This document shows, one piece after another, positions 23,490-50,549 of a stretch of 64,000 nucleotides of DNA. This stretch comes from Branchiostoma floridae. Lineage: Eukaryota > Chordata > Leptocardii > Amphioxiformes > Branchiostomatidae. The notes beneath the pieces were generated by a model that saw only the letters and a list, made by a program, of their open reading frames with translations, was not told the origin of the DNA and searched no databases. The stretch spans positions 13,512,153 to 13,576,152 of the forward strand of contig NC_049981.1 in assembly GCF_000003815.2 (NCBI RefSeq). Direction: 5' to 3'. Position 1 is the first letter of the stretch; every line of letters begins with the position of its first letter. The translations under genes and the position numbers were made by a program.

Positions 23490-24619
23490 ATATACATATC
23501 ATGAACATCTTTATTATACATAATTATATACCCTCTGGGTTAAGTACAAATCTGAACATGAATATTTTACAGATACATGTACACATTGTGAAGCTAGCAC
23601 AGCTTCCTGGCAACTTAGATTTCACAATGAACGCAAATTTTTTTCGGTCAAACTTTTTTTTATTCATGCTCTCGCATAAGTTTTGGAGTTTCCATAGGAT
23701 GTCATCCATATAATCAAATCAACATGGCCTAAGCTGTTCCAGAGCCATGACGTGTAGAGAATACAACTGTTCTTGTAGATGTTGGTTCCGCATCGGGGGA
23801 TGTGAAGGTGTACGGAGTTACGTATGTGGAGCCGAGTTTGCGCTTGTCTTATTGATAGGATGAGTGGATGGAGGTAGGGAGGTACATAGCCGGTTTGTAC
23901 ATGATGGCTAGACGATTGTCACAATAGACTATGATAGTCTTGCAGACTTGCACATAGGGCATGCAACAGATAGCACCCTATGACTGAAATTCTATATAAC
24001 GTTATGACAGCCTGGTGTGGTTAATTTTGTCCATGCCTTGAAATAATCAACAACTGCTCAGTAAACAGATCACAGTCTGGAGTAACAATAGTTTTATTCC
24101 CAAAGTTTAAGAGTCTTAAATATCATGGTATCATAAAAGTATAGACATATTCAAATCTTTAGATATCATATTGTGACGTGCAAATTTAAAGTTTCTTAAA
24201 ATAATGCACAAGACTTATTGATGGTAGTTTGTTATACAGTATTTACATGACTTATTCTTCGCACCATTACACTGTATCACAACTTTAAACGAATATTGCC
24301 ATTTATATGTCTCAATTATAGGCAGAACCCATCCTCAAACTACTTGATAAACACATTTGCTGTGTCATGTTAGAATACAATTTGAAAAATAGCGTAAAAT
24401 CCAGGTAATGTATTCAGATATTCAGAGCAATATATTATTGATAATAAAAGAAGACTACTAGTAATCTAACATCAGCAAACACGTTTGATGAAAGACAACC
24501 ATAATTTATTAAAAGTAAGATATAAGTGACTTGTATTGCAAAACCTTTTTATATACATTTCTTATTCATTCAAATACATAACGCATATCATAGCTCTTAT
24601 GAAATCAAATTGTTAAACT
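23490..24619. other. Shared 3' region of two convergent genes
   Basis: No coding exon. It must contain the 3' UTR of SLCO (plus) and of the polycystin gene (minus). AATAAA on the plus strand at 24443-24448 is a possible but distant SLCO poly(A) signal. On the minus strand an AATAAA (about 24505-24512) is a candidate for the polycystin gene, about 110 bases after its stop. The rest is AT-rich. Confidence 0.45.
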
Positions 24620-27600
24620 TTAAGCGTATGGATCAGTAGACGTGGAACCTCGCTCCTTGCACTCAAACTTGTACATCAAGTCAGTCACCCTGTCCACCTC
24701 CTGCAGTACCGCATCCGTCCGCTGGAAGGTCTCTTTCATAAAGTATTCCGGAAGTGGAGCCTCATCTTCAGAAACGCATTTTTTAGTTAAGTCAAAGGTC
24801 GTAAAATGTCACAGAATACATCATAAATTATTATCTAATTTCCGGTCTTCAACTTCCTGTCTTATGGAAGCCAGTGGTAGAATGCATAGTCAGAATCAGC
24901 GAGAGATTATAGATAAACAACAATAGAAAAAACAAGGATTCACACAAAACCTTGATTTCCTGTTAATTTCGTAATCGATGATGTGAATATTGGATAGATT
25001 TGACCCTATAGATATACACGTACATGCTATATGTATAATTGTATCATAAACGACAATACTGCATGAGCATAACATAATTACCTTTAGTTGAGCGTTTTCT
25101 TTGGAAATAAATTCGTAGGCACAAAAATGAAAATGGTTGCCATGAGTTAACAAAGACAGACAATGTCAAATACTGAAGTTACCGTCAGAGACTTGGGACT
25201 CATGGCGCATGCCCAGAAGACTCCTGAAGGAGTTCCAGAAGTAATCTCCCATCGCGGTGTCCACCTCAATGTCGTCTGACGTCTGACAGTAGCTCAGCCA
25301 GTTACACAGCATCCCGACGCCTAGATTCATCTGTGGAAGACATAAGCAGAATTTCGGTTTCAATACAAGAAAAAAAAATTAAATCGGTACCCCTGTCCTC
25401 ACGAACTGAGTGGATGTAGCCATGAGTCATCAATTCCTGCGCATCGCTTGTAATCACTTCATTCCTGTCGATATGTCTACAACATTGGACCAGGGCCAAG
25501 TATGAGGCATCCAAATTCTTCAAGTATCGTATTACACCATTTTCTGTGTACTTAACTACCACTGACTGCGAACTCAGCCCAGACAAACAAACACAGCAAA
25601 TGATTACAATACCTCAGTTTTCATGCAGGTAAATATTGATTACCATGTCGATTCAGTCTTCAATACGAAGACGAAGTTGGAGCAGTATAGGCTAATTTTG
25701 ACTCTTAAGTTGAAATGATATACAACATGACCAAAAAGACCCCATATAGCTAAAGAAATGGACTTTCTCTGACCAGGTATGTGATGAAGACCAAGACGAA
25801 TGTAGAAAAGTACAGAGGTCCCATCACACGATCCACTCTCTTCATATCGTCGGCAAAGACATCGACGAACGGCCTCCCCAGGCCCATCTCAAACAGCACG
25901 TACGATGTTTCCTTAAAGGCGGAGAAGCTCTTCATGTGTTTGCCGAATATCAGTATCCCGCAGAAGCCGTAGGCCACTATGATAACCAGCATGTACACCG
26001 CATACCCAAAGGCCTCACGGTATATCAGCTGGTATAAAAAAAAGGGAACACTTAATGACTTATTTTACACATTATTGTTGTCATTTCAGTTTTAAGATGT
26101 AACTATGAAGTCCAGAGGTTTCATTCGGAATTTATTGGATCAACAGAAGCAACTCAAAAGAGTTCTACGTACACGAGGCAAAGCAAAGACAGTAGCAACA
26201 CTCCTGGAGAAGTTGAGAACCCGCAGGATGCTGAAGGTACTTATGAAGATGGAGAAGGACAGGACCGACTTGAAGGTTGTGTCCCATTGGCTGGCAGCAC
26301 TGATGTTCACAAACTCATTAATGCCGTGTAGTTCTGTTTAAGATATCACCAATATACATTACATATATCCCATAGAATTGAAAAATTATTTGTGTGTTCG
26401 GCTTTTAACGTGTGGCATTAAGACTTGGCCTATTGTCACCACACGGACATCGCTTTTGTTACATATATGCAATAATAAAGGATGTGTCTCTACTTTGTAC
26501 CTTTTACGCGCTGTATATCACCCAATGCAGCAGCTGCCCGGATGTACCGTAGTCCGAATGTCACAATAACGGCTGTCGACAAGCCAATGTTGCACAGGAT
26601 CAAAATGTTCCAGAAGCTGCCGAAGTAAAGACGGCCGTTCTTTCGGATATTGCCTATTTCACGAAGGGCGTTGTAAATGAAGAATAGGAGGAACAGGATG
26701 TGGAAAAGCATCTGGACGAAGTCGTCTGTTGTCTCGTACTGGAACAGTCGGAAGGTCTGGATGTTTGGCTGCAGTTCAGCAGCGCCCCCTGGGATGTACT
26801 GCAGGGTGATGACCACGGTGCTGAACAGCTTGACGTCAGGGTGGTAGAAGTTGGCCCGGAGGATGAGAGTATCGGAAACCATCAGGATCCAGTTGGTCTG
26901 CTGTAGGAGGTCTATCACTGCACCGGCCTGGCCAGCATCCTGTGGCAGGTCCACTGTGGTAATACACGCCGAACTACACGCCGAACTTCCGTTTCTGAAA
27001 ACCAAACAAATTCATTAACACAGCGTATTTTGATTACGAGATAGAAAAACGAAATCCTGTGGGCAAACAAAATAAAGGAACACGGCAAACATGTGTTTAT
27101 ATACCTAAAAGCATGCCAAGATGTGTGTGGTTTCCATTGTAATGAACAGTTCGGTTCGCTCAAGGTCGGTCCTGAACTGCATGTATTTGCTTTGTTTCAG
27201 CAGCTCAGGGTAGAGCCCATGCCCCAAAAGCTCGAGATCTATTTGTCTTGTTGGGTCATCTGAAAGATGGAGGAAGCGGGAGTTACACAATTAGAAATAT
27301 ATCATATAAGCTTACTATTTAACCGAAAGAAAACAGCGGAAGGAAAGGGAGTTACACAATTAGAAACATATAAGCTCACTATTTACGAACGAAAACAGTC
27401 CCAAGCAAAATATGTAATTATAACAACAAGCTGAAGCTTTGAAATCATCGATGCTGGTCACCTGGATAGATGGTGGTTCTCTCCAGGCGAACCGGACCGA
27501 TCCGGAATGCGTTTGTTCCTGTCGGAAACTGTTTGTCCAGCCACCTCAGCTTCTTCCCGCTGTATCCACGCTCTGGATGAAGGGACGGCATCAGTTCAGA

Positions 27601-28449
27601 CGACAGCCACTCCCAAGCGTCGTCTGCCGTGGTGACCTGTCGAATATCCGCAAAATTGATTATACACAGAGAGGGAGAGAGAGAGAAGGGGTCATCATGG
27701 GTCAACTTGTGAGGGATAATTTGCCTAATAGTACCTCATCATATCCGGACAGCAGGCTGTTCTCCAGCGATGTCCGGACGTGGTAGGTGTGGCTGTCGAA
27801 GTCCAGAACCCCGATGTAGAAGGCATTCGCAGTGAAGATCAGTAGTATCATCAGGGTAACCAGGATGTTTCTACCCGCAGCCATCCTTTCCGTCCAGTTC
27901 GGGTCATGGTCGGTTTTCTTCGGGGCTGGTGGTAAAACCCTCGGCTCAGGGACTAAAAGAAATGTATATCATACCAATTTTAGAATAAAGACATATTCAA
28001 TAAATATTGTACGGCAACAATATCATTGTTCATTAAAGCAGCGATGTTTTCTAATGATGTACATATAAACGTTTAACTTGTTGAAGATAATGTATCAAAC
28101 AACATGCATCATGTACTGATTTGGTTAAAAGAACAGCTTTGATAAGGGCAGTATCCAGTATCACCTTCCTTCTAGTAGAAAACTATCATGATGATCTTGT
28201 GAGACAAGTCATTATGGAATGTTTTGTCCACGGTATCGTTTGGCTAGCTATTATTTTCAGCAGTGCACTGTTACACGTAAAATCGTAAAAGGATGTACCA
28301 TCATAATCCTTGTTATTCTTTTGAACAATACCGATCGGGGACGGCTGTTTCTCCCCTGCTTTCATCCCCAAAGCATTTCGAACACAAGATGTCACAGAGC
28401 AAACCATCGGTGCGATGATGACTGCCTTTGTGCAGGCAGCCAGAAAGAT
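24620..28449 (-). other. Polycystin exons 35-43: polycystin (TOP) domain and cation-channel helices
   Basis: Exon 36 has TM segment [20 protein letters not shown]. Exons 37-39 form the extracellular polycystin domain ([52 protein letters not shown]). Exons 39-42 hold the voltage-sensor-like helices and the pore: [54 protein letters not shown], pore segment [13 protein letters not shown], last helix [17 protein letters not shown]. The S4-like segment has few Arg/Lys, as usual for PKD1 proteins. The last exon is a charged, possibly coiled tail ([20 protein letters not shown]). Exon 38 breaks the frame. Confidence 0.82.
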
Positions 28450-31400
28450 CTGCAAAGTCACGACATAAATGGGTTAAGTAAAAAAGCTGATATCTAATTT
28501 CCATATGAGGTATTGTAGCCTGTTTTGAATCTTGAGGATCGTTTTGCCATGGAATTGCAATTGGTACCTCATCTTCTTCCTTTTACGAGAACAATTACCA
28601 TACCACTAACGATTTAAAGATTGAGAACAATACATGAAGAAGAAGAAGAACTTTATTGCACGACAACTGTAGAGGATACAGTGTTTGGCAACTTGAACAT
28701 ACAATACATACAGAACAGAACACTACATGAGTTACTAGTATCTAAAAAATTGGTTCCTCGTTTTCATCCTTTTACGAGGACAATTATCAAATTATCGCGC
28801 CACTGACGATTCAAAGATTGAGAACAATACATGACTGATACCAACCTGAACAGGTTCCAGTAAAAATGTAGAGAACAGGAATGTCAGGACGAAGTCCTTC
28901 AGCCAGGCCTGGCTTCTCCCAGCTCCAAACTGCAGACTGTACACGATGACGAAGAAGCTGCTGCTGACAGACGTCAGGGTGGCGAGGATCCACGCCACCG
29001 TCTTGTACGGAAACCGGCGGGTGGACAGAGATGTCGGCGTCTCCAATACATCTGAAGGGATCTGATCTACCAAAGGGAGCTGCTTACGAAACATCGGTAC
29101 AAGGATGATGTAAACTGGCAGGAACACCGTGAACGACGTCGCTGCAGTACCAAGCAATTCCGAAAGACGGAGGGTGAATACGCCGATGTCAAGGAAAACC
29201 ACATCGTCTGCACCAACTGTGACCCCGTACCACATGGCGCTGCCCACCATCCACAGGGTGATCTGAGTCAGGCAGCAGACCAGGCGCTGCGCCCGGCTGA
29301 AGTGTCTCACACCGGAGTTACACATAACTGACAGGAGCAGATGTTCGTCATATAGCAGATACGAAAACGTCGGTAGGGAATACTCCGATATCCTAGGACA
29401 CATCATAAAGACATGTATCGAGATTTCAAAGAAAGGTTACATCTTAGAACATATAAGATTTACTTTTTTTACGATATATTGGCTTGTACCTATTACCCAT
29501 CGTATCCTGGACTAGATTTTATAGAACACTGAAGACAGATAACGTGATTAGTATTGTCATTAATGGAGATCCAAAAGGTATGATATTTCCTTGATATATA
29601 GATTATAGATTATCATTTTATCTGATACATTACTTTGTCGTATTGGATGAGGAGTTGAAGATCAAAGAATCATTTAAATATTAGATCATTTATTCAAGAT
29701 ACTTTGAAAGTACAAGAGAGGTGAAACCTCACTGTCCTCACCTCATGTCTCCTTCAGGCACGACCTTTAACGTCCTGATTGTCCTACCGTCTCCTTTGTG
29801 TAAAGACAGCCAGGCGCAACATGGAAAAGGGAATCTGTAGTAAAAAGAGACAGTCACTGTTGTAGTTAATCTCAAAGGGCAGTTATTAGGTCTTAATCTG
29901 AAACGTGCTCATTATGTACAGGAGAACGTCTTAGTAATTTTTTTAAAGTTTTCTCAGTACAAGACGAAGAGACCACACAGAACTATAGCTTACACTTAAA
30001 AACAGCATCTCTTCTTCCTATCTATCAAAGTTAGATAGGTCATGATTGTGAATAAGCACGAAGAGCCCACAGTTATGATATATTATGGTACTGTACCCAC
30101 CCCTGTGATGTCTGTACATCCCAGACTGTGATGTTGTCTATGAAGAGTGACTCCATGGCGCCCTTCCCGGAGCTGTCGTGCCAGACCTGTACAGACTGGA
30201 GCTCGCCGATAGAGGCTGGTGTCGTCATGATGTGGTACGTGTCACCACCTCGGGCTAGGATCTAACGACATGTATGAACAAGACGGTCTATCATTATAGT
30301 TATCATTGATGAGCTGTGTTTGCTTTAAAAGTGTTATTTCCAGTGATATTTCTGCATTACTTTGTTTTGTGGTATTTTGTTACCACTTTGGTATCAATAA
30401 TGGTATACTTTGTACAAAATAAGGCCATAAATACCTTTTCATGTTAGCCATAGCATAGTTATTTCACTGATATAAAATGCTCAAAACGCGTGTATACTCA
30501 AGTAAAATGAATACAGCACTTCGTACCAAACCAGCGGTGTTGAGCGTAACCATGGCCGTCCTGCCCTCTGACCCTGTGATCATCAGCCCGACCACAGACG
30601 CCGTGCCGGCATCAGGCTGGGTTCCCGTACGGACAGACACGACGTAGACGTAGTCCGCACCAGGAACTTCTGATGGGATTGTCGACACTTTGGGAACAAC
30701 CGCCATGCTGGTGTTTGATTTGTCCAGCTTTGCTGCTTGTCCAAGAGTAAAGCTGGTGGCCACTTTGTTGTTCATAAAAATGTTGCTCTGAAGAAAAGCG
30801 TTGATAAGTAGATATTAGACGTCCATTGATAGTTACAAATAAAGTATAAATTTCCATACCACAGAATAATTATGTAACTATCCGGAGCAGAAAAAAAGTG
30901 AGAGCGTCACAAGCTATCACAGATAATGCTATGAGGCTTAGAATATGATAACAGATTTACAAGAAAAACAATGAATGTATTGATTGACATACCTGGATAT
31001 TAGACCTCAGTATTAATAGGCGGGACATCAGATATATCATCCACAGAACAAAAATTGTTCCAAACACGGTTGAATTTGTGGACAATTTGTCTATGTTGCG
31101 ACCAAGTTTGTCAAAATTCACGAAATTTGGAATCGCCACAGAAGATGTTGCCAAAATCACCCTGTTGCTTTTCCATTGCTGTCTCGTCTCATGTCACATG
31201 CGCATCGGGTGGTCGTCTCGTTCGTTTCAATCCAACCTGCGGTACAGATAGTACAGTAAACTATTCGTGATTTTCCCCAAAGCAAGAACTAATAAATAAA
31301 TTGGCACTCGTATTTCGGAGAAAGGCGAGTTTCGGTTCAAAATAGCGCTAGAAATTATCGATATCATCCTAAACTTCGATGGATTCTGCGTTAACCAGTA

Positions 31401-34400
31401 TCATAATCCTACTAGGTTAGTCAGTATATATAAAACCTTGCAGCGGTGGTTATTCCAGATCTGTTTTTCCATTTCCCACATCAGACAGGAGACTGCAGCA
31501 GTCTGTAGGGTGAAGCCTGATGGGTTGCCATGGCGACCCGGAGGGGGCGTGGTCTGGGAGCCTCGATCCGCTGACGTCAGCAGTCGTCTGAAACCACTGT
31601 CCGGTGTGTCTCTACCTGATGACACAGCTGCATGGGAAAATCAGAGGAAAACATCAACACATTTGTAATCTCACTATTTCATTCTTTTTAAAGAAACATT
31701 TGATGGAGACCTTTCAAAAGCTGACATCTGATTGTTGATGCTAGTATTTGAAAGCACGATGGCAGGCAAAAAACATAGCAAGAATATGTAACAAGATTAT
31801 GTTTACCCTTGTCCTTCACCCCGACTATGACCCAGCCGTCTTCGCTTTGTACCTCCGGAACGAATGAAAAGGTGAAGTTGGAGTAAACTAAGCCGTACGG
31901 CATCTCAAAGCCGTCATAATCAGTGACGTCAGGAGGTTTGACAGTTGTTGTGTAGTCGTACTCTTCTTCAGTTGGGAAGTCGTGAATCCGGACGTACACC
32001 TGCAGCTCCGTGTCGACGTCATCGACTGAGAATCGGAGCAGAGGCACCTGGCCTCCATCGGCAATGTACATCGCGTGATACTTCATGTCGGTGTCATGGC
32101 TGGGAACCTTGGTGAGCGGGAATGATTTCTTTGCATCATCGAGTTTCTGCTTGTATGATGTCGGCAGGGTCTCGTGATACTGCTTTTCTGTGTCATCCAT
32201 GGTCCTAAACTGCACTATAGACTTCAGACCAACGGTGATACTTGGACTGTCATTGAGGGACTGGCCCTCATGGACATCGGTATCTTTGGTGATTGTCATC
32301 ATGACTACAGGTGAGGATACTTCGGCATCGTCTTCACTCCACACGAAAGGATCATTGTCAAACACCACAACCTGCGTGAGATACAGGATTAACGATCGTA
32401 ACATATATTGTTGATCGTAGAGCCTTCATGTGGACTTGCCACATTTGTTTTGAGAAACAGCTTTAAGAAATCAAACTGCTAAAACAATTGCATACAACTT
32501 CTTTTATTGTCAGTGTACTGTTTATAATATGGTTAGATGCTGATAGATTTGTGAAAAAGAACGGTCCAATGTTAGGACTATAATCTCACCATTATACCGG
32601 CATCCTCAGGAAGGCCATCTTCCTTTGTAAGGTCGATGAAGCCGATATCCCGATCGATAGGAACGGTCCCAACATCAGGGATGCCCCTTCTCACTGCCGT
32701 GAACACACCGTCTGCCTCGAAGTGTGCACCCTCTCCTCCCGGTAATGTTTCATCCAACAGCTTATCTGCTGCTGTCTCCAACAGGTCCAGCAACTGCAGA
32801 GTTTCACCCTTTATCTAAATTGTACAAGAGTTCGTATATTTACATAACCTATACTTTATTATGCATGGCTTTTCCTAACTTTTGATATGTTACTTACAAA
32901 TTAGATACATTATGGCACTTTGCATTAGACCACAGCAAGTAAATTTTATGGATGACATCCTCCGCAGACTGCAAAAATAGTGCGATAGGGCGAAAAAAAA
33001 CAAGATGGGTGAAAGAAAACAAGATGGCTACATTTTCAAAAATAGGCACCATAAAGTTGTGATGAATGTTGTAAATAGAATTAAAGGGGCAAAACATGTT
33101 ATCAGAGCCAACTAGGTATTTATTCCTGTATTTAAGACATGCACTGGTGTGGTAAAAGTGACACTAGTGTGGTAGACTGGCATCACTAACAAAGTTGGTA
33201 AGCACACTCATAGCTTCCATATTGGTGGCACTTTTACAACTATCCAATAAGTTTCATTTCTACAACTACAGTCCTGGGTACCTACCGAGTGTCACATCTA
33301 TAAGTACAATTATTAGGCAACAACACAATGTATTTGCTCATTTTGGTACTTCATCGTCATGTTGACCGTCCCTGCAGAAGAAAACAAATCTTGTTTTTTT
33401 TCCGAAATCAGGCGAAAATTAATGCGCGCGCTGATGTCATCCATAAAATTTACTTGCTGGGGCCTTAACTATGCAAAATAAGTTAGAATTTACAGAGTTG
33501 GTATCTATGGATATTCCACATGCGATGCATTACATATGTTACATGTGGCAATGTCCTATCATGAAAAACACTGCGATTATAGAATACCCTCATTGATTAT
33601 GCAAATTAGGTCAGAAGTTACATAATTTGCATCTCATTTTTAAATATCTGTCTAAGCTACCTGCATACCAAATATCATGGAAAGAGGTTCTTCATTTATC
33701 CAGGGACGATTTTTATCAAAAATGTCCATGCAGTCACAGAGCAAGCCACTAGGGGGTCCAAACCCACTCCACTTTTCTTTTAGTTATCTGCGACAAAAAA
33801 TAAAGATAGGAACATGTCTAGGAGAAAAGATACAAAAATCGGAAGTTCCGGTTATCATGGAGATAAAAACGTCACTTGATTGTCAATGAAACATTTTTAA
33901 GCCTGTTCAGTTCGAGAATAAATGAAATAGGCACCTACCCGAGACTTGAGACGTTCTTGCTCTTTCTCCTTTCTCTCCAGTTGTTCTATCGGTGACATGT
34001 CGGGGGAATCAACGTCTATCAGGTCTTTCACCTCATCAGTGACGCCAAAGGAAAGGTCAAAACTCGTGGCCATGGCAACAATCTCCCTGCAACTGCTTTG
34101 AGCTCGTAGTACCGACGATGTCGCGTAAGTCACTTCTGTAAGTTTTGCATATGACGCGCAATCAGTCACGTATAAGACAATGGACGAGATAAAGTGGGAT
34201 GGCATTACAAATAACTAAAACATTCACCTTAGAACACTGATTTCATTTAAAGCAGAAGATTGGAAGAAAAAAAAGAACCTTTCAGAAGCTCCTTATGATC
34301 ATCCAGTGACCCTTTGAAGTAGTTCACCTTGTCATCAAGAGTTTGAATGAGAGCAGGTATATCCTCCTGCAGTTGAAGAAATTTTGACACTGGTTGTAAA

Positions 34401-37400
34401 AATCATCAAACGAATACAACTACTACGACAACTAAATTACATCAACTGAAGAAAGTTTGTACGTGTGTGGAATCTATTACCTTCATTAGAAATGACGTCT
34501 GTGTTGAGGATTCCTGGGTGGCCATGAAAACATGAGGCTGATGAGTTGACTTAGCTTGACCTGCTGTCAGAGGTGGGATTGTGGGCTTAGTCGACACGTG
34601 TTCGGTAGAACCTTCTTCAGTCATTTCTGAGTCAATGTCTGTTACGAAAACGATCAGGTGGAAATAAGTCATGACTGAAACAATCTATGCATACCATCTT
34701 GTTCGTTATTACCAGGTAATGAAGGTATGCATATATTGTATAACATCTATCCATTTCAACGCAAACACACACATTTCTTCACAAGTAAATGGTTTTCTTT
34801 TACATGCTATCAAGTAATTTGATTTCATTGTTTACCCCCAAAGATGTCTTGAAACAATGTCGTTTTCATGGTTGCTGATCTGGTAAACACCACGGTTGAA
34901 GTGGATGTGTCTTTGAGGGGAAACCAGCCGGTTGATCTAACCGATGTAGTAGACGCAGCAGTGAGTGATGTAGTTTGCTCTGTAGTGCGTAATGTTGATG
35001 TTGATGTTGATGCTGATGTTGAAAGTCCTTGACGAAGGCGAGAAAAAAGATAAAGGAATGGAATAAAACAAACTTTCTTCCCATTTGCCAACACCCACTA
35101 GTACCACAAGAAGAAAAATTGCTGACGTTACATGTATCACCTCCATTCACCATTTCATTTTGATAGTGAGAAATTACACAACGTTGGAGGGCAATGGTTG
35201 TAAGAATTAACAAACATTCCTGTATGTTTTAGCACACAACAACGAAATACAATCAGCAAAAACGTACTGTGACACTCGTTTCCGTCGCCTATAAATCCGT
35301 CCAGACACACACAGTGGTAGCTCCCATCCGTGTTCGCACAAAAGGCGTTGACGTCACACACTGACTCTGCACTGCTGCATTCATCAATGTCTAAAAGGAA
35401 TTAATGTGAATAATGATAAAGTTATTGTAACTCAACACAAAGAAATTGAGTTATTTCTTGCAGCCAATAAAACAATGAGAAAGTGAATCGCGACTTAATT
35501 TCCATTGCCATGTGTACCCTAACTCGGAATCTATTTTTTCTCAGACAAAAATCAAGAACAGACCTTGGCAGCCGCCCTCCCCCATGACGTATCCAGCTGA
35601 GCAGACACAGTCGAAGTAGCCGTGACCGTTGATGCAATCGGCGTTGATGCCGCAGATGGTTGGATTCTCCAAACACTCGTCAATGTCTAAAACAAAACAG
35701 TTTCCTGTCAAATCCTGTTAAAAGTAGCATGTCTGGTAATCAGTCAATACTATTGATTAGAAAAAAAACGCGTAGTACAGAATAAAACATTTTTGTAACA
35801 CACCAGTACAATTGTGGCGATCAGCATCTAATCTGTAACCATCCCTACAGAGGCAGTGGTAGCTCCCACCAGTGTCGACACAGGTCTGCTCACATCCGCC
35901 ATTTGATGACGCACATCCGTCCACAACTGTTCATGACGTGTCATAAGAGGTTACATTAAATCATTTGATAAACACCAGAAATAGAATCGATGATATTGAA
36001 TAGTCTCTTAGTCACCATAACGGACTGTGAAAATAAGAATCACTTACGAATCAGGCCCAGTATCAAAAATATAGATATTATTAAGATCTGCTATTTCATG
36101 CCATAAAGTGTTCTAAAAATGTTCCATTTCTGATGAAAATCAATACCTAGATTCATTTGACAGATGAAATGGCCTTGACCAGTACATCGACCATCAAACC
36201 AGAAGCGCTCCCTCCAACAGAGAGCATACGCGCAGTCTTCAACACCACCCTTGTTATTCGGCTCACGTGGCTTCCAGTTGGTATAATCGCCTGACGTCAG
36301 TGTTTGGCCGTCCTCAAATACCCAATGGCCCTCGGTGCTGACGTCAGTCATCCCAATCCAGCGTTTATGCTCTCCCAGACTGAAGAGAAAATTGTCGGTC
36401 GCATTGTCTTTGGGCATGGCTAACAGGCCACCGTCTTCGGCACACCTCTGTCTTGCTTCGTCGTACGTCTTCAGCTCGAAAAAGTATTTGTAGCACACTC
36501 CGTTAAATTTGATGTAGTCAGATAGTGGACAACCTGGAGAACGATGATTATCTCCATGAAAAAGGACATATTGTTTTTTGAGTGCGTCTGTCTGTGTGTT
36601 TGTATGTGTGTGTTTGTATCTCTTTCTCTCTCTCTCTCTGTGTTCATGTTTCCGGATTATTGTAGTCAACATCAGTCAGGAAACTCTAGATGGATTACGT
36701 TGATGTTTGGTATGTTGGTTAGTAACGTTACATGTATTGGAAAAACGAAGGGCAAGATTGCTTTTTGGCCCTCTGGTAGGTGACCTTGGTACTGCAGCAG
36801 AACGTCTGCTTTTTTTGTATCTGTTGACCTGCACGTGCTATGGTCTAAATTTGGTGGCAGATAGCTTCTGATGTAAAGAATAAGTGGTTTTCACCCTTGA
36901 ATAGCTGCTATGAAACTAAAAGGACGTTTTGTCAAAATCTTCCAACGAGGATAACTGAACAAAGGAACAACGATTTTTCATGATATCCAAAATGCTGGTG
37001 GCTAAGACAGCGATGTACAGAATGAAGTGTGAATCATTAAATTGGGATCTAATTTAGATAATTAATGAGGCAAATCTATCATAGAGTGTTCTTCATGATA
37101 AGACTCGAATAATGTAACATAATCATATAGTTTATGGTCGGTTGAACATTAACAGATATGATCCTTTCCAATTTGCATAAGATCTACCCCTGTGTCCAAT
37201 GTCAGGCCATTCGATGGAGAACCGAAACGGCAGGCCACTTCGAATCCTCTCAGAATGTGGCCAAAAGAATATCTGAAATGCAGTAAGAATTTCTAGAATA
37301 CACTACGAATTTCCAGGAATAGTAAAGAATTTTCATTCTGACGGCAATTTGGCTCATTCCTTCTTGTGTGAAGGGGATATAAGGTCCATTTGGAATTCCC

Positions 37401-40400: not shown

Positions 40401-43400
40401 ATCGTTAAGGCACAGTGCCCAATCCAAAACACCGATCAGTCTATATGCATAAGATAAGTCAGCCTGAAGGACGATTAAAAGTGATACAATATGAACCTAC
40501 GTACGTTTAAACGAGTCTTAAACTCAGATGAGGGTGTTATTTTTCGCTAGACATTAATGTTAGGAACTGACAAAATGCATAATTCTTTACATTATACGAT
40601 AACGTACCCAGTAGTCCCACATACATAAAAATCATTCAGTATTCTGTTAAACTCCCCAACTACTCAATGTGTCTGACATGGACTGACACAAGTTAGGTTA
40701 CAAAACCATTTTGAAGGGCGATGTACTAAAAACTCAACTTGTAATGGGTGATTTGAACAATCAGCTTCCTTGGCGTGCATATCGCCCCTCATTTATGCCG
40801 ACAATATCTATAATAGCGGATGCGCCTATGCGTATAGGAAATACATGGGTACGGTCTGCATGGGTTTGGCGAGTGTCATTGTTGTACAAACATACATTGC
40901 GTATTTCAATGCTATGCACGATGCGTCATATATAAGAGGTTACAAAAAAATTGAAATACACAAGAAAAAGACATGGCTAACATTGAATAGTCTCTTAGTC
41001 ACCATAACGGACTGTGAAAATAAGAATAACATACGAATCAGGCCCAGTGTCAAAAAGATAGATATTATGAAGATCGTGCCAAGTGTTAATAATTAATACC
41101 TGGATTTATTTGACACATGAAATGGTGCTTTCCGCTACATTCACCATCATACCAGAAGCGCTCCTTCCAACAGGTAGCATATACGCAGTCTTCATCACCA
41201 CCCTTGTTATTCGGCTCACTTGGTTGCCAGTTGGTATAATCGCCTGACGTCAGTGTTTGGCCATCCTCAAATACCCAATGGCCCTCGGTGCTGACGTCAG
41301 TCAACCCAATCCAGCGTCCATTATGCCCTCCCAGACTGAAGAGAAAAGTGTCTGTCGCATTGTCTTTGGGCATGGCTAACAGACCACCGTCTTCGGCACA
41401 CCTCTGTCTTGCTTCGTCGTAAGTCTTCTTTTCAAAAAAGTTCTTGTAGCAAACTCCGTTAAAGTTGATGTAGTCGGACAGTGGACACCCTGTGGAGGAA
41501 GATGATTCCTAACGTGAAGATTTTGATGATTAATTCAAATCGATTTACCGCTGGACCCGGTGCATTATTTCCATGCGGTGTTCAGCAATGTAACGTTATG
41601 CGTCCAAGGTTGGCCTAGCGCCCGTAAAAGGAGAAAATATCAACAGATGTCTTACCAGCCGCACAGTTATGTCCAGTCCAGTCCAGTTCGAGCCCGTCAC
41701 TACAGGAGCAGTTGTAACTTCCTACGGTGTTGGTACAGGTCTGGGCACAGCCACCATTCAGAATGGAGCACTCGTCAATATCTACAAGGAATTATCAGAC
41801 TTTTCAAATATAGGAAGAGTAAACATGGTTCCTTCTGGAACGTATACGCCATTGTCAGGAAGTATACCGTTAGAAGATAAAGATTTTTTAATGTAGGAGT
41901 TTCATGCTGTCAAGCTAAGTTTTCTTGTTGAATATTCCTCTAACTCCATTTCTAGTTGTCTTCCTTTCATACGTATACCTTGGCAGAAAAGATCTGTCTC
42001 TGTCCATGATCCATCTGCAGTGCATGTTCTGACAATGGCATCACCGGAAATGACGTGATATCCCGGGGAACATGGGTAGGTGCAGTTCTCCCCCAGCAGA
42101 TAAGGACAGTCACACACAGGTCCGGTAGTGTTGGCTTGGGTCGGTGGGTCAAAACACACTCCTGGAGATCCATCTAGATTGAGACAGATATTCTACATCG
42201 TTTAACGAATTATGAGCCATGGGGTCCAACACTGAGCGGCAACAAAAGAAATGTTTTACTCTTTTGATAACTGAAAACTGATTAGAAATAAAACCCGATC
42301 AGGAAACGGAAAGAATCTTCTTCATCACCGATCATGTGGTATTGTTCGTTATATATAGAATAGGAAACATCACACCATTACAGGGCAAACATCAGCGATC
42401 TGTAAGGCTGCATGCACTGTGTGTTTTCTTATACCTGTTGGTATGAACGCCTCCACAACAGTTGGTCCTCTTCCTGGAGCATTCTTATCTTCCACAAACC
42501 AACATGGATTCGTTCCCTTCTGAGTGATCATGGCGAAGGACTCTCTTTCTCCTATAATGGGTATCAGAATATATTCAACTCTACGAAGGCATGCTTGTAA
42601 ATATGAGCAGGTCTCGGTGATTCCCACGAAAACATGTTTACAGATAACTATGAACCATCTACACTGTGGACCTGAAATTGAACCTGTTCGTCCATGCAGC
42701 AAAATTCAAGTTTCAAATTTAGCAGAAAAACTTGTTATTAGCCTTCAACAAATAGCAATGTAGACTTTAAAAAACGAAAAGATCAATTTCTTTCTCCCTG
42801 AGTTGAAAATGTGATAAGAGGATTGATTAACAAGGCACCTATTCGAGTCATTGTAGTTCCGTACTGTGCTAGATTGGGTTCGTTGTCTACGTCATAATCG
42901 CCGCCTTTGTCATGAATGACGATGACTATGATCCGTCCCTAGCACCAAACGAAATGAACAGTGGTGATGCAGAATTAAAGGCTTAATAGTAGTTCTATAA
43001 CAACAAACGGAAAGTCAGAATGAGGCTAATTCATACTTTCCAATTGATAACGATGCAAATTACAGCATTTTCTGTCGCTTTTTGCGTTTCCAGAAACCAC
43101 CAACAAAGTTGCGTTTTGTAGGGAATATGCAAGCTATGTGACAAGATAAGGCTAAGAAAATAGAATGTTTTATTCGAGTGCAAAATTTATCAACTACTTA
43201 CGTATGAGACTCCTTCCAGATAAGCTGCCAGGTTTCGTGCGTATCTGACGCCTCTGAAGGTGTCAAAAGCCTCCTTGTTTACCACTTCCCCCGTCCGTTC
43301 ATTCAGAATGAACACCTGATATCCACGATGACGACCTGACGTGTATAGGAAAAATTATGAAATGTATTGAAGAGCTCTTATTTGAATATTACTACGTGCA

Positions 43401-46400
43401 TTTCTTCATTCTTGAAATTAACGATATGTTTTAATGGCCACACAATTTGCTCCAATATTGCTCAAATAATTTTACACGAACAAAGTATACATACGTTTCT
43501 TAATGATGCTCTTTTGTCCGTTACTGGTGATATACGAAGCACCATAACGATCGTAACATGGATCGTAAATAGAGATAGATCGCGCCCGTACGGTAAAACC
43601 ATTTCGGACTGTGAAAATAAAAGTCACATACTGTTCAGGCACAATGTCAAATGCAAAAAACATCTTAAATGATAAGTTAGCCTGAAGGACGATTACAAGT
43701 AACACAATAAGATGGTACGTATGTTTAAAGACAGTGAACACGGTATATATATTTTAAACGAGTCCGATAGACTTAAAAACATAACATCTGAATAAGGAAT
43801 GTATACATAAATATTTGCAACAAAGTACTTACTAGAACAGCTATGTTTGTCCTCGTCCAGTACGAACCCTTCACTACAGGAACAGTTGTAACTGCCTACA
43901 GTGTTGGTGCAGGTCTGGCTGCAGTTGCCATTTAGAGTGGAGCACTCGTCAATATCTAATTATAAGAGTTGAGATTTATCGTTAGGGTTACTGCTTGCTT
44001 TCAACAAACTTACTTATGCCCAAACCTTTGAGTAGATTATGATATTGTTATGATTATTTTGTACCTTGGCAGAAGATATCCGTATCTGCCCATGATCCAT
44101 CTGCAGTGCATGTTCTGACGATGACATCACCGGAAATGACGTGATATCCCGGGGAACATGGGTAGGTACAGTTCTCCCCCAGCAGATAAGGACAGTCGCA
44201 CACAGGTCCGGTAGTGTTGGCTTGGGTCGGCGGGTTAACGCAAACTCCTGGAAATCCATCTAAATAGAGACAAAAGTGTAGACTAGAATCCACAGAGTAA
44301 CAAAAAAGTTTTGAATAATTCTCCTATCCTATTCATCCAAGACCTCCACACTCAGTGACAAGATTTTTGCCATGTCCAGTATCATCCGATGTTGCAACAG
44401 TTTGTCATTCAATATTTCTACCAGGTCCTATCCATAAAATGTTTTTCTCAGATGCAATGAGTTGGTGGCATAAGAACGGCCAACTCTTACAGTACTGGTA
44501 CGTAATGAAAGTGCAGATAGTCCTCACCTTCTGTACAGTTGAACCTAAAGACCCCGAGAACATACATGGTCTTGTAGCCTGCTAGCGTGATGTCATCAGT
44601 TACCGGTTGAGGGTCTGTCCAGGACATGAAGGGTTCGGCATCCCCACTTCTGCCCACACCAACACTTCCGCCCTTCGACCAACAAATCCAGAACCTCCGA
44701 AACTCAGCAGCTGATATGATATCTGTGCATTTCAGTAAAACGAGCCACACAATAAAGTAAAAAGGTGAGGATGTAGGTATTTTAGATTTCTTTCATTTAT
44801 CAGCTATTCGTCCCTTGAGGGAGTTAAAGACGCTTTATACATTATCATCAGGAAAGAGAGAGAGAGAGAGAGATACTATAGATATATTCAATTGTACTGT
44901 TAATTAGGAAAAAACTTCTTGAAGAAGGATATATGCAACATATGTTACTTGGAAAGAGTTTATGAAATCATATAGATTATTATGCAAACAGGAGACTTCC
45001 TTGCTTATCTATAACGAGCGACGAGCTCAAACTCATAATAAAGGTAAACGATTTAGTTCATAATTTTGACATAGGAAAGTTGTGTAGATGTGAACAACTG
45101 AAGTCACCTATTATGCCAATTGATTTACCAATAACAATACTTGGTATTGCTGAACTATGGAATAACATTTATTTGTTGTTGTTGTGGGAACTTGCTATTG
45201 CAGCGTTTCTCCTCACCTGGTGTGTTCTGCGTTGCAACGACAGTGACATCGTAGTGCGAGACTCTCCCAATGTCGGACTGGTCGGACTGCCCCGGTCCCG
45301 ACCGGAGGATGACGCGATACCCGTCATGGTCCAACGTGTCCAGCCGGATGACGCAGATCCCAGTGGTGTTGAGCTTGAGCTCGAAGATGAAGGGGGAGGT
45401 AATGACCATTGGCAGATCCCACTCCAGATTGTCAATGATATCTAAACTGTCTCTCTGCTTCGTGATCGAACATGGCGCTGGGTTGGGAAATATAGAGAAT
45501 ATTTCTGACAGTTACATCTGGAATCCACCATTTAGGAAAAAAAATTGTATAGCGAAGAAGCTGGACATAATTGGCTCATTCTCATTGAAATGTAAAAAAT
45601 GCTGTGGCCTTCCTTCACGACTTGACATGGAGCGAATCACAGACAACAACACTCCTTCCTTGATTTTCCAACAACCCCTGTAATGTTCTACAAAAGGTTC
45701 ACCACAAAAATCGTATGGGCTGGTGGCTTGGAAGAAATTATAGCCACGGGTGGGATTCCACACCCTAAAAAATGGCTGCCGCCTGAGCAGACACGAAGAA
45801 TTTAAATAGTTGTCAAAAATGTAATTAACAATTCAGTTCCCAGAATGATTGCTCGGCAGGTGAAACCAGCTACCCAGGCCCTCTGACCGATCACGTCAGA
45901 TCGCTCCCGTCATTGATCTTGGAGGCTGTGTAAGGGGGTTTATGCCTGTCGCCAAATTCGGTACCAAACGTTGCCACCACGAGTGAGACGGTTGCCACGA
46001 CTATATTAGCCATGTATAAGACTAAAAATCGCCGTTTTGTGACGCTCTATAGTTTTTCTGGCTTTCTAAAGAAAAAAGGAAGGGTTGTTGACTGTCATTT
46101 GTAGCCCGCCTTGCTTAACTGAATATTGTATAAAAAATTACTGTAACAAATGTTACCATTGTTTGATGTTATTTATCTCACCTGGATACCGGTAACGTTT
46201 GTTACATGCCCTGAAATACATAACCTATGGGTAAAGAAATTATAAGTTGCCCTTTTTGGCTATGCGCAAAAGAGGAATTTTCCTAAACAATTATGCAGTT
46301 TTGACTGAAAAATGAGCTGTTTTATTTTCGAACCAAAAATCGCCATTTTTTACATTTCAATGAGAACGAGTGAATTGCTCCAACTACGCAAATATGTCAG

Positions 46401-49400: not shown

Positions 49401-50549
49401 TCTTAGCCTACCAAATGCGGATGCAGCCAGTGAGATCCTTCTCTTTATATCATTTGTGGTGCCTGGTAAAACACTTCCTAGGAAAACAAACTCAGGGACT
49501 TTTTCAACATTTGTACCCTCTATGGAGATGTTTTCTCGTTCTATACTAGAGATGACTTTACATTTTGCAGCATTCACTTTCAGACCCCATTTTTTGCAGG
49601 CTACTTCGAGCTCATTTGTCGAGAGCTGAAGTTTACTGAATATTGCTGCAATAAGTGTAGTGTCATCTGCATACCTTTCCTCTGTGGATAGATTATCATG
49701 GAGTTGAAAAGTAGTGTCAAGGCTTTTCAGCTCATCCATCACAAACTCCAGGAATATGTTGAAGAGGACTGGGGACATGAGGCAGCCCTCTCTGACTCCT
49801 ACACCAACTTGGAACCAGTTTGTGATCTGTCTGTTGATTGTTGTTGCACATTGAATGTTCCTGTACAGTTCTTCAATAATATTTACAATTTTTGCCTCTA
49901 CCCCAATCGCTCTCATCATTTTCCATAGAGCTTTCCTCCAAACTGTATAGCCGGTCTAACCGCCATTCGGAGNNNNNNNNNNNNNNNNNNNNNNNNNNNN
50001 NNNNNNNNNNNNNNNNNNNNNNNNNNNNNNNNNNNNNNNNNNNNNNNNNNNNNNNNNNNNNNNNNNNNNNNNCGAATGGCGGTTAGACCGGCTATACTGA
50101 GATACAGAACTGTGTAGGCTTTAAACCGGCACTCGATGTGCTGTAAATGCAATACAGATCTAGTTCACTTCTTTCACAACAAGGTTAGAAGAATGCAGAA
50201 TAAAACTTTGTCTGGGATATGAAATTATGGATTTCTTTGTGTTCTTAATTTGTCGTTGGTAGAAACAAGTTGACAACAGGAACACGTTGGTGAAATGAAC
50301 AATTTCTAGACTCTATTCCCTGTCCATTGACATTTCGCGATGTGAAGTTCTTGATCACCACAAAAATACCATAATTTGGCATAAATCTTGCTGAAACGTT
50401 CGTCTCCATTCGATGATCGAGTCATTGCAGAAATCGTAGTTAGAATCAGTATTTTGATGATAACAATAACACTTACCTTCCACACTTGCGGCATAAATAA
50501 AAATGATACAGCAGATGAACCTGACGACAATTTCGTGTCGTGAAGCCAT
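24620..50549 (-). CDS. Giant polycystin-1-like receptor/channel (FAMeT, sushi, EGF, CLECT, ILEI, GPS, PLAT, PKD channel)
   Basis: Forty-three exons, transcription order: 50549-50477, 45477-45217, 44722-44528, 44259-44065, 43955-43833, 43608-43495, 43335-43202, 42938-42839, 42551-42435, 42173-41979, 41781-41656, 41489-41100, 40379-40278, 39616-39468, 38830-38734, 38523-38407, 38126-37932, 37724-37599, 36533-36147, 35926-35804, 35686-35564, 35390-35268, 35027-34836, 34638-34481, 34366-34279, 34135-33939, 32814-32590, 32371-31807, 31615-31437, 31236-30993, 30787-30527, 30261-30101, 29834-29742, 29392-28846, 28449-28332, 27952-27735, 27636-27462, 27259-27105, 26994-26522, 26333-26173, 26028-25774, 25330-25183, 24765-24620. 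About 8.3 kb coding, about 2,775 residues. A signal peptide ([14 protein letters not shown]...) opens it. Polycystin-1 family proteins are 11-TM, GPS-bearing receptors that pair with polycystin-2 channels, often in cilia or sperm. Exons 30 and 38 have frame-breaking lengths (see findings); all other junctions are in phase. The link from exon 1 to exon 2 across 5 kb rests on phase and signal-peptide logic only. The gene could be functional with assembly errors, or decaying. Confidence 0.85.
27270..27410. repeat. Tandem duplication, unit 69 bp
   Basis: GGGAGTTACACAATTAGAAA starts at 27278 and again at 27347, followed in both by ATATAAGCT.ACTATTTA and a GAAAACAG. In the polycystin intron between exons 37 and 38, adjoining the frame-broken exon 38. 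Confidence 0.75.
28565..28840. repeat. Direct repeat pair, spacing about 190 bp, around an AAG-rich insert
   Basis: The block TCCTTTTACGAG(A/G)ACAATTA...AAAGATTGAGAACAATACATGA occurs at about 28578-28636 and about 28775-28833. Between the copies lies (GAA)n followed by CTTTATTGCACGACAACTG, which resembles a retroelement tail. Located in the intron between exons 34 and 35 of the polycystin gene. Confidence 0.6.
28846..30787 (-). other. Polycystin exons 31-34: PLAT domain and TM2-TM5 region
   Basis: Exons 31-33 encode the PLAT/LH2 domain: [62 protein letters not shown], then [16 protein letters not shown]. It lies on the first cytoplasmic loop, as in all polycystin-1 proteins, where it binds lipid and protein partners. 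Exon 34 (547 bp) starts after PLAT with [19 protein letters not shown] and AMWYGV, the conserved TM2 start, and contains at least four hydrophobic helices. Confidence 0.85.
30993..34366 (-). other. Polycystin exons 25-30: GAIN-like region, GPS motif and TM1
   Basis: Exons 25-28 encode about 360 residues with no Cys-rich modules ([14 protein letters not shown]..., [36 protein letters not shown]), in the position of the GAIN/REJ-proximal region. Exon 29 ends with the first half of a GPS motif ([17 protein letters not shown]). Exon 30 holds the second half ([11 protein letters not shown]), then [13 protein letters not shown] and the first TM helix ([17 protein letters not shown]). Exon 30 is 244 bp between two phase-0 junctions and so shifts the frame. 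Confidence 0.7.
33420..33470. repeat. Interspersed repeat fragment (GCGCGC-TGATGTCATC type)
   Basis: AATGCGCGCGCTGATGTCATC followed by AATAAAAT-like sequence is shared with 39128-39160 and, in part, with 32947-32975. It explains an apparent short exon at 32894-33000 that does not fit the reading frame. Confidence 0.5.
34481..35926 (-). other. Polycystin exons 20-24: three EGF modules and a Ser/Thr-rich linker
   Basis: Exons 20, 21 and 22 are each 123 bp and encode six-Cys EGF modules. The last two begin DIDEC, so they bind calcium. Exons 23 and 24 encode about 117 residues rich in Ser and Thr ([20 protein letters not shown]), mucin-like and probably O-glycosylated. The TCAACA hexamer array in exon 23 (35022-34994) codes for STST and is prone to slippage. 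Confidence 0.75.
36147..41489 (-). other. Polycystin exons 12-19: CLECT, ILEI, sushi, EGF, CLECT
   Basis: Exons 12 (41489-41100) and 19 (36533-36147) are single-exon C-type lectin domains, both with [15 protein letters not shown], the calcium-binding EPN motif (SEPNNKGG / REPNNKGG) and W(Y/F)DG.C in the WND position. EPN predicts mannose/glucose-type ligands. Exons 13-16 (40379-38407) encode a second ILEI domain with the same four-exon split as the first. Exons 17 and 18 are a third sushi-EGF pair. The second and third cassettes are near-duplicates of each other. Confidence 0.78.
39274..39377. repeat. Tandem duplication, unit 52 bp x 2
   Basis: ACATGATAGTATTTGCTGTC through ATCATGTTTCCAATG is present twice in direct tandem with about two differences, starting at 39274 and 39326. 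It lies in the intron between ILEI exons 14 and 15. Confidence 0.9.
41656..44259 (-). other. Polycystin exons 4-11: sushi, EGF, ILEI, sushi, EGF
   Basis: Exon 4 and exon 10 are sushi/CCP modules of exactly 195 bp ([21 protein letters not shown]). Exons 5 and 11 are calcium-binding EGF modules (DIDEC start, six Cys). Exons 6-9 (43608-42435) together encode a FAM3/ILEI-like domain, residues about 283-437: [60 protein letters not shown]. This order matches the FAM3 GG domain (rG.nv..ln..tGev, FDt, G.iv....D, KG, .vve..iP). Almost every exon is phase 1-1, as expected for exon shuffling. Confidence 0.75.
44528..45477 (-). other. Polycystin exons 2-3: FAMeT-like domain
   Basis: Exon 2 (45477-45217) carries a beta-rich half containing [12 protein letters not shown]. 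Exon 3 (44722-44528) carries [20 protein letters not shown] and [11 protein letters not shown]. The latter matches the farnesoic acid O-methyltransferase (Methyltransf_FA) pattern FR.FWI.W..G.i.VG....PF..W.DP.P. Despite the name, this module is a beta-sandwich found in many secreted and receptor proteins and is likely a binding domain, residues about 40-176. Confidence 0.65.
44855..44873. repeat. (GA)n microsatellite
   Basis: About nine to ten GA units in the polycystin intron between exons 2 and 3. Confidence 0.9.
46641..46942 (+). repeat. Copy A of a roughly 300-bp interspersed repeat
   Basis: Begins about CTGTAAGTTGAGGCACACCC and ends about GGTAGCATATCAAGTCAT, with TTCATGCATTAGCGACGGGT and GAACACACCCAAAAT before the end. 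Same order in copies B (47891-48200) and C (51429-51738, inverted). Non-coding; MITE or SINE-like. Boundaries approximate. Confidence 0.7.
47531..47592. repeat. Tandem duplication, about 32 bp x 2
   Basis: AAACTGCAATTCAGCCCT followed by (T/C)TGT(G/A)CTGAT occurs twice in a row in polycystin intron 1. Confidence 0.8.
47632..47680. repeat. Pyrimidine microsatellite (TCTG/TCTC)n
   Basis: CTGTCTGTCTGTCTCTCTCTCTCTGATCC and the following CTCTCTGTCCCTCTG form a simple pyrimidine-rich tract. Confidence 0.85.
47891..48200 (+). repeat. Copy B of the roughly 300-bp interspersed repeat
   Basis: Begins CCGTAAGTTGAGACACACCC and contains TTCATGCGTCAGTGACGGGT and GGACACACCCAAATGTCAGC, then ATATCAAGTTATATG. 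Diverged from copy A by substitutions and small indels. Confidence 0.7.
48880..49945 (-). mobile_element. Broken LINE (non-LTR) reverse transcriptase, 5'-truncated
   Basis: Read on the minus strand, the frame from about 49919 encodes finger/palm motifs of a non-LTR reverse transcriptase: [15 protein letters not shown] in an adjoining frame, [20 protein letters not shown], then the catalytic [10 protein letters not shown] (YADD). Near 49390-49305 the frame shifts into [21 protein letters not shown] third piece carries [17 protein letters not shown], the typical C-terminal tail of RTE-like and related LINEs. At least two frameshifts or stops and the missing endonuclease end make it a dead copy. 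It lies in intron 1 of the polycystin gene in the same orientation as the gene. Confidence 0.85.
49946..50096. repeat. 24-bp perfect inverted repeat flanking the assembly gap
   Basis: Bases 49946-49969 and 50073-50096 are exact reverse complements (core GGTCTAACCGCCATTCG). The only other known base between them is GAG at 49970-49972. The same CTAACCGCC.ATT core and GAG centre occur in the hairpin at 13671-13701. Confidence 0.9.
49973..50072. other. Assembly gap of 100 N
   Basis: Exactly 100 unknown bases, the conventional size for a gap of unknown length. It sits at the centre of an inverted repeat, so the break probably reflects a hairpin that stopped sequencing or assembly. It falls in polycystin intron 1. 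Confidence 0.98.

Follow-up and report, generated by a model that had tools for sequence, protein, structure and literature searches.

We analysed a 64,000-nucleotide stretch of the Branchiostoma floridae genome (513 Mb), called the window below (C3:13512153-13576152), and found on its minus strand, from 50549 to 24620 in window coordinates, a gene for which the prediction of a polycystin-1-like protein with ILEI and FAMeT modules in its ectodomain is well supported. As predicted from the exons, this is a real and unusual architecture in a known family. The chain begins with a secreted-type start and continues through an ectodomain of phase-1 modules headed by FAMeT, in the order FAMeT, sushi-EGF, ILEI, sushi-EGF-lectin, ILEI, sushi-EGF-lectin and three EGFs, to a stalk, a GPS-like motif, the first transmembrane segment (TM1), PLAT, further transmembrane segments (TMs), TOP and the channel with its pore region. 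We consider it probable that this is one receptor gene of the polycystin-1 type, in which ILEI and C-type lectin domains, added by exon shuffling, would read glycans and pass the signal via the stalk and TM1/PLAT to the pore.

Pfam searches were made with four pieces of the gene model, with single domains alone and with the sushi exons singly. Matches to Methyltransf_FA, Sushi, EGF_CA, Lectin_C, ILEI, PLAT, Polycystin_dom and PKD_channel were all above the curated cut-offs. The FAMeT domain matched Methyltransf_FA at 7.4e-10 in its model piece and at 9.1e-11 alone (42.1 bits compared to a cut-off of 24.2; profile positions 47-119 of 140). The first and second ILEI domains (ILEI1 and ILEI2) matched Pfam ILEI at 5.4e-13 and 6.7e-15 alone, and at 5e-12 and 9.5e-14 in the longer pieces (49.7 and 55.8 bits; cut-off 27). 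All three sushi exons matched when tested singly (1.6e-6, 2.5e-7 and 9.8e-7), and two sushi stretches were found in the first model piece; the model pieces also contained six EGF_CA stretches, both C-type lectins matched together (Lectin_C, 7.4e-40, two stretches), and the Polycystin_dom match (1.7e-8) covers the last third of the profile only. The original prediction, i.e., FAMeT, three sushi-EGF pairs, two C-type lectins, two four-exon ILEI domains, EGFs, PLAT and a polycystin channel in one order, was thus borne out by Pfam on the joined exons, including significant ILEI and Methyltransf_FA matches.

The assignment to the polycystin-1 class is based on the membrane part. With the PLAT-TM part of the neighbouring paralogue as the query (its exons are 90-97% identical to those of the window), human polycystin-1 (6a70_B) was matched at 3.5e-20, ahead of lipoxygenases, and in a PDB sequence search the channel part matched polycystin-2 at 1.2e-19. 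Hydropathy places TM1 directly before PLAT; a simple scan downstream of the signal peptide counted ten segments when two overlapping ones are taken as one, and eleven when they are taken as two; the expectation for the PKD1 family is 11. HL(S/T) is the consensus tripeptide of GPS cleavage. The closest known relatives in overall plan are lectin-bearing PKD1-like proteins of the PKD1L2 / SpREJ3 type, which, in the available parts of PMC1934368 and PMC5318412, have in common with the window gene the lectin domain(s), PLAT after TM1, TOP and the polycystin channel; the GPS-like motif seen by eye ahead of TM1 and the hydropathy count of ten or eleven TMs may be further points of likeness. The window gene differs from them in its FAMeT, sushi and ILEI modules and its six EGFs; in addition, no REJ or PKD repeats were found in our Pfam searches of it, its GPS stays below the Pfam cut-off, and the usual cleavage tripeptide is absent from the GPS-like motif of the two paralogues read by eye (the neighbour and a copy on C8). 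REJ and PKD repeats are usual in the polycystin-1 family and not required; according to PMC1934368, PKD1L3 has no REJ.

The original prediction also described one phase-consistent exon chain. This holds for the ectodomain, where all between-module boundaries are phase 1; it does not hold for two membrane-part exons, which are out of frame (see below). The exon phases of the ILEI module are 1-1-0-1-1, i.e., phase 1 at both ends, and 1-1 modules are classic exon-shuffling material. The neighbouring paralogue (C3:13590116-13609348, plus strand, divergent from the window gene), whose exons are known from tblastn matches and a hand-read alignment, repeats the window exon chain around three N runs, with most channel exons over 90% identical. 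We drew no conclusion from the lack of lectins and of a second ILEI in it, since their expected place is taken up by a 1297-base N run. The C8 paralogue (C8:19.65 Mb) was read over 20 kb without N, a part that excludes the start and the last exons; it comprises FAMeT, sushi, three EGFs, stalk, GPS, PLAT (up to 95% identical), TMs and channel in the same module order as the window gene, and no ILEI or C-type lectin match was found in these gap-free 20 kb. Since this paralogue has the same frame minus ILEI and lectins, these domains look like phase-1 insertions, and the ILEI and lectin modules would have joined a FAMeT-sushi-EGF-PLAT-channel frame by exon shuffling.

We also searched the whole genome for the combination of FAMeT and channel. 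All 123 FAMeT matches and the best 150 of 158 PKD_channel matches were used; clustered by place and strand, they yielded 74 FAMeT and at least 126 PKD_channel clusters, and it should be noted that clusters are not genes. Among the channel matches listed, at least 17 of the 74 FAMeT clusters (on C3, C6, C7, C8 and C164) are followed within a limit of 25 kb by a same-strand PKD channel, at distances of 11-21 kb. Two have such a channel upstream, and for none does a channel lie on the opposite strand within that limit in either direction. This asymmetry speaks strongly for the prediction that the ectodomain and channel exons form one gene. FAMeT also occurs beyond the window gene, as it lies 5' of a polycystin channel at no fewer than 17 loci, and the genome contains a large expansion of polycystin-type genes, with the above numbers of channel (among the matches listed) and FAMeT clusters.

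ILEI lies between FAMeT and channel in three of these 17 loci. The window has two copies, the neighbour shows one, followed by a gap in the sequence, and at C6:13.12 Mb the part read covers the second FAMeT exon, a sushi, an EGF and the four exons of an ILEI. In all three, the ILEI is a four-exon module placed after the first sushi-EGF. An exon-by-exon, six-frame genome search with Pfam ILEI returned 31 matches, none of them in the window at E 0.001, as expected because the domain is split over four exons; a search with the spliced ILEI2 of the window returned 75 matches, forming 24 clusters. Most ILEI domains in the B. floridae genome are not tied to channels, since for 18 of the 24 clusters no channel was among the matches listed in the downstream 50 kb (C10:15.64 Mb, with a channel 17 kb upstream, is among them). 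Four-exon ILEI clusters of this kind, several of them tandem, were seen at C5:28.25, C5:28.49, C1:26.24, C7:7.43 and C5:1.98 Mb, the last with a discoidin-like open frame alongside, by eye. At C11:6.673-6.687 Mb and C7:17.086-17.127 Mb, ILEI lies 14 and 42 kb, respectively, upstream of a same-strand PKD channel match; these are possible further ILEI-polycystins outside the FAMeT group and were not counted as such. Neither was the ILEI cluster at C6:3.58 Mb, which has a channel 44 kb downstream and FAMeT between.

The probable role of the ILEI domains was assessed from their relatives. In PDB sequence searches, the POMGnT1 stem was the best relative of both ILEI1 (3.9e-7) and ILEI2 (2.9e-6), followed by FAM3C (1e-4 and 8e-4). 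FAM3 proteins are small, secreted and without a channel; the window gene shares the ILEI-type domain with FAM3 proteins such as FAM3C/ILEI and with C. elegans FAMP-1, and is not of the stand-alone FAM3-cytokine form, having two ILEI domains in a multi-domain chain with a channel. It differs likewise from the POMGnT1 stem, which belongs to the same ILEI fold family and is the stem of a glycosyltransferase, whereas the ILEI of the window occurs twice in a channel receptor and is encoded by four exons each time. As stated in the accessible text of PMC9802357, the POMGnT1 stem binds N-acetylglucosamine (GlcNAc) via R129, D179 and R207, sugar binding is reported for FAM3C, FAM3A and Fam3L2, FAMP-1 has tandem FAM3-like domains, and B. 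floridae has a FAMP-1-like gene and no reported FAM3 orthologue. The three contact residues, which were placed uniquely in the printed chain by their spacing of 50 and 78 residues, are all kept in ILEI1 and in the ILEI of the neighbour; the C6 ILEI keeps two of them and has Lys in place of the last Arg. EPN is conserved in both lectin exons, and lectin 1, searched alone against PDB, is closest to mannose receptors. Because the POMGnT1 stem is the closest relative, and because the POMGnT1 stem, FAM3C and FAM3A bind sugars, ILEI here is more likely to be a sugar-recognition module than a tethered cytokine, which would fit the lectin domains already known in the polycystin-1 family (PMC1934368, PMC5318412, each as far as available). 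Taken together, the ILEI residues and the EPN-bearing lectins favour a row of sugar-recognition modules.

In the proposed mechanism, the two ILEI domains and two C-type lectins would act jointly as such a row, and the ligand would be glycans, or a glycan-coated cell, egg coat, microbe or matrix. The binding signal would be transmitted from the stalk through TM1/PLAT to the polycystin pore domain, and, like known polycystins, the receptor would probably pair with a PKD2-type subunit in a heteromer. An uncleaved and mechanically continuous receptor is more likely, because the GPS-like motif lacks HL(S/T) in both paralogues.

Several observations weigh against the glycan-receptor reading. Sugar binding is deduced from residues; ILEI2 keeps two of the three GlcNAc-contact residues, the first Arg being lost, and C. 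elegans Fam3L1, which has lost two of the three, did not bind sugar (PMC9802357, in the part available). In the calcium site of the lectins, WND is replaced by WYD in lectin 1 and by WFD in lectin 2, and therefore calcium-dependent binding by the lectins is uncertain. Pfam GPS, REJ and PKD-repeat gave no match in the four window pieces at E 0.01; a GPS-like Cys/Trp pattern is seen by eye, and the Pfam GPS match in the neighbour is weak (0.0098; 16.8 bits compared to a cut-off of 22.5). The full form with two ILEI domains and two lectins was seen in the window alone. The dN/dS of ILEI is 0.82-0.94 among ILEI1, the neighbour and C6 (hand-aligned codons, with two codons of the C6 copy trimmed), which may also mean weak constraint. 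Finally, the GPS/TM1 exon 31236-30993 and the TOP exon 27259-27105 are out of frame in the window copy.

This last point leads to the most serious alternative, namely that the window locus is a decaying copy, i.e., a pseudogene, and that the paralogues are the working genes; we regard this as quite conceivable, while leaning somewhat against it. Compared to the neighbour, the damaged exons carry several small, frame-breaking indels, and the same two exons are open in the neighbour (hand-read alignment) and in the C8 paralogue. Conversely, the TM-PLAT-channel part is conserved between window and neighbour (NG86 dN/dS 0.23, 908 codons), and the intron adjoining the damaged TOP exon is a near-perfect match to its counterpart in the neighbour; an indel-rich exon next to a near-identical intron points to a local consensus error rather than to decay. 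The three N runs in the neighbour region are likewise indicative of imperfect assembly here. The other modelled exons are open as well; however, this follows from the way the model was built and says little. Both an assembly error and a pseudogene are possible causes of the frame damage, and because two exons are out of frame, the window copy may make no full product. The finding of the architecture does not hang on the window copy.

A second alternative, close to the original prediction of a ligand-like fold built into a receptor, is that the ILEI domains serve as tethered ligands of the FAM3 type, which would either gate the channel or act as a signal on neighbouring cells. That idea retains some ground, as FAM3C is a significant PDB relative; however, the POMGnT1 stem is the better match, the sugar-contact residues are largely kept, and sugar recognition is the more likely role. 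Moreover, FAM3C itself binds sugars (PMC9802357, partial text), so even a ligand may be sugar-based. We consider a tethered ligand unlikely.

Alternatively, the ectodomain modules may have no specific partner, with ILEI and EGF diverging freely as spacers. This would be consistent with the ratio of amino-acid to silent changes between window and neighbour, which is 40:14 in ILEI1 compared to about 50:62 in the TM-PLAT-channel part (Fisher p 4.4e-4). However, the contrast between ILEI1 and FAMeT in change counts is not significant (p 0.08), and ILEI1 exon 4, in which sugar-contact residues are kept, is nearly unchanged compared to the neighbour (2 base differences in 37 codons). It is improbable, in our judgement, that these modules are mere spacers. 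The fast change of ILEI may reflect either adaptation or weak constraint. An ectodomain dN/dS of 0.44 was not used, because lectin exons had been matched to unrelated neighbour sequence and repeated modules had been aligned to one and the same set of neighbour exons. Lectin-bearing polycystins have a precedent in the sea urchin REJ proteins, for whose lectin domains PMC1934368 describes positive selection and a probable importance in gamete recognition.

It has very little probability that the locus holds two neighbouring genes, the first for a secreted, lectin-rich protein and the second for the polycystin channel (and the variant of a duplicated cassette of two separate genes is unlikely). 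The uncertain borders of stalk exons 34674-34328 speak for such a split. Against it, the same-strand arrangement recurs across the FAMeT clusters, stalk and GPS exons in between are matched in two paralogues, and polycystin-1 proteins are described with such an ectodomain in PMC1934368.

Returning to the glycan-receptor reading, we put forward one further proposal tentatively, as something that may well prove wrong: fast-evolving polycystin receptors could read cell-surface glycans (including O-mannosyl and GlcNAc-ended ones) via ILEI domains of the POMGnT1-stem type next to C-type lectins, and, with the GPS uncleaved, convert the recognition of self, a gamete or a microbe directly into an influx of cations. 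If this is true, ILEI would be a portable sugar-reading module placed in channel receptors, and the FAM3 'cytokines' would look like free lectins. The natural fusion of ILEI with a polycystin-1 ectodomain makes ILEI/FAM3 binding and polycystin-1 sensing each testable through the other, and the FAMeT-channel loci (at least 17 paired, three with ILEI between) are natural with/without pairs for glycan tests. The value of the architecture is in this testable sugar-sensing reading rather than in a built-in cytokine.

The novelty assumed in the original prediction for the ILEI/FAMeT-polycystin architecture stands as far as searches of a partial literature library went: no paper in it brought either ILEI or farnesoic acid together with polycystin, and none joined polycystin, amphioxus and exon shuffling. 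Papers with polycystin, Branchiostoma, domain architecture and PLAT exist and, by their titles, are on other subjects. An automatic protein-database annotation of the ILEI-polycystin architecture may exist. PMC10015273, in the part available, mentions Methyltransf_FA and Branchiostoma and no polycystin; it also states that, even in insects, FAMeT has yet to be reliably demonstrated to methylate.

The gene model was obtained by splice-site and codon-use scoring with anchors set by hand, starting from open frames read by eye, which on the minus strand form an unbroken run of domain exons over the whole gene. The plus strand was rejected, because by eye no coherent domains could be made out in its open frames of at least 35 amino acids (24300-33500). 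After four exons were dropped, the model comprised 39 exons and 2519 residues; a missed S3-S4 exon, added later, brought it to 2581 residues. The exons dropped before the domain search were 49870-49675 and 49069-48911, which are part of a reverse-transcriptase stretch, and 46210-46182 and 39029-39009, which are small and doubtful. Exon borders are uncertain in the stalk, GPS and TOP parts; the two out-of-frame stretches are not properly in the model, and at the GPS it places a false border (31627-31413 to 31178), which skips part of the damaged exon.

Table 1. Features of the polycystin-1-like gene in the window (window coordinates; exons are given in the direction of the gene)
Feature	Position	Strand	Basis
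Exon 1, start codon and signal peptide	50477..50549	-	Open frame, strong donor GTAAGT; neighbour paralogue 96% identical over 23 codons
FAMeT (Methyltransf_FA) exon 1	45217..45477	-	Pfam PF12248 over both FAMeT exons and alone
FAMeT exon 2	44528..44710	-	PF12248 with FAMeT exon 1; six-frame genome search 3.8e-8
Sushi 1	44065..44259	-	Pfam Sushi 1.6e-6 alone
EGF 1	43833..43955	-	Pfam EGF_CA 4.5e-9
ILEI 1, four exons 43608-43495, 43335-43202, 42938-42839, 42551-42435	42435..43608	-	Pfam ILEI; PDB POMGnT1 stem; exon phases
Sushi 2	41979..42173	-	Pfam Sushi 2.5e-7 alone
EGF 2	41656..41781	-	One of five EGF_CA stretches, second model piece
C-type lectin 1, single exon, EPN motif, WYD at WND position	41100..41489	-	Pfam Lectin_C; PDB best = mannose receptors
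ILEI 2, four exons 40379-40278, 39616-39468, 38830-38734, 38523-38407	38407..40379	-	Pfam ILEI; PDB POMGnT1 stem, FAM3C; exon phases
Sushi 3	37932..38126	-	Pfam Sushi 9.8e-7 alone; no match inside longer model piece
EGF 3	37599..37724	-	One of five EGF_CA stretches, second model piece
C-type lectin 2, single exon, EPN motif, WFD at WND position	36147..36533	-	Pfam Lectin_C
EGF 4	35804..35926	-	One of five EGF_CA stretches, second model piece
EGF 5	35564..35686	-	One of five EGF_CA stretches, second model piece
EGF 6	35268..35390	-	Best EGF_CA stretch of second piece; neighbour 90% identical
Stalk before GPS, exons 34674-34481, 34366-34328, 32814-32590, 32371-31807 (first two boundaries uncertain)	31807..34674	-	Frames matched in neighbour (75-93% identical where covered), more weakly in C8 paralogue; no Pfam match
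GPS-like motif and TM1, exons 31627-31437, 31236-30993 (second out of frame)	30993..31627	-	Cys/Trp pattern by eye; alignment to neighbour; C8 paralogue open
PLAT, exons 30787-30527, 30261-30101, 29834-29742	29742..30787	-	Pfam PLAT 1.4e-10
TM block between PLAT and TOP, exons 29392-28846, 28449-28299, 27952-27735	27735..29392	-	Hydropathy; neighbour 90-97% identical
TOP (Polycystin_dom) and first channel helices, exons 27636-27462, 27259-27105 (out of frame), 26994-26501	26501..27636	-	Pfam Polycystin_dom; neighbour alignment; C8 paralogue open
Polycystin channel helices and pore, exons 26333-26173, 26028-25774	25774..26333	-	Pfam PKD_channel 7.8e-20; six-frame match 1.7e-8; PDB polycystin-2
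Last helix, C-terminal tail and stop, exons 25330-25183, 24765-24620	24620..25330	-	Open frame to TAA stop; neighbour 92-94% identical

Exon 26994-26501 carries an in-frame 12-base tandem duplication near its start, relative to the neighbour. Intron 1 contains a reverse-transcriptase remnant (49308-49955, minus strand; RVT_1 3.8e-17), with an adjoining N run at 49973-50072. Just upstream of the gene, a 348-amino-acid open frame (52588-53631, minus strand) has the look of a coding exon by eye and gave no Pfam match at 0.001. Elsewhere in the window, exons of one or more organic anion transporter polypeptide (OATP) genes were found on the plus strand at 16964-17518 (Pfam 9.1e-39) and 19939-20463 (Pfam 7.7e-13), as was a Kringle domain exon at 60392-60916 (Pfam 2.3e-25).

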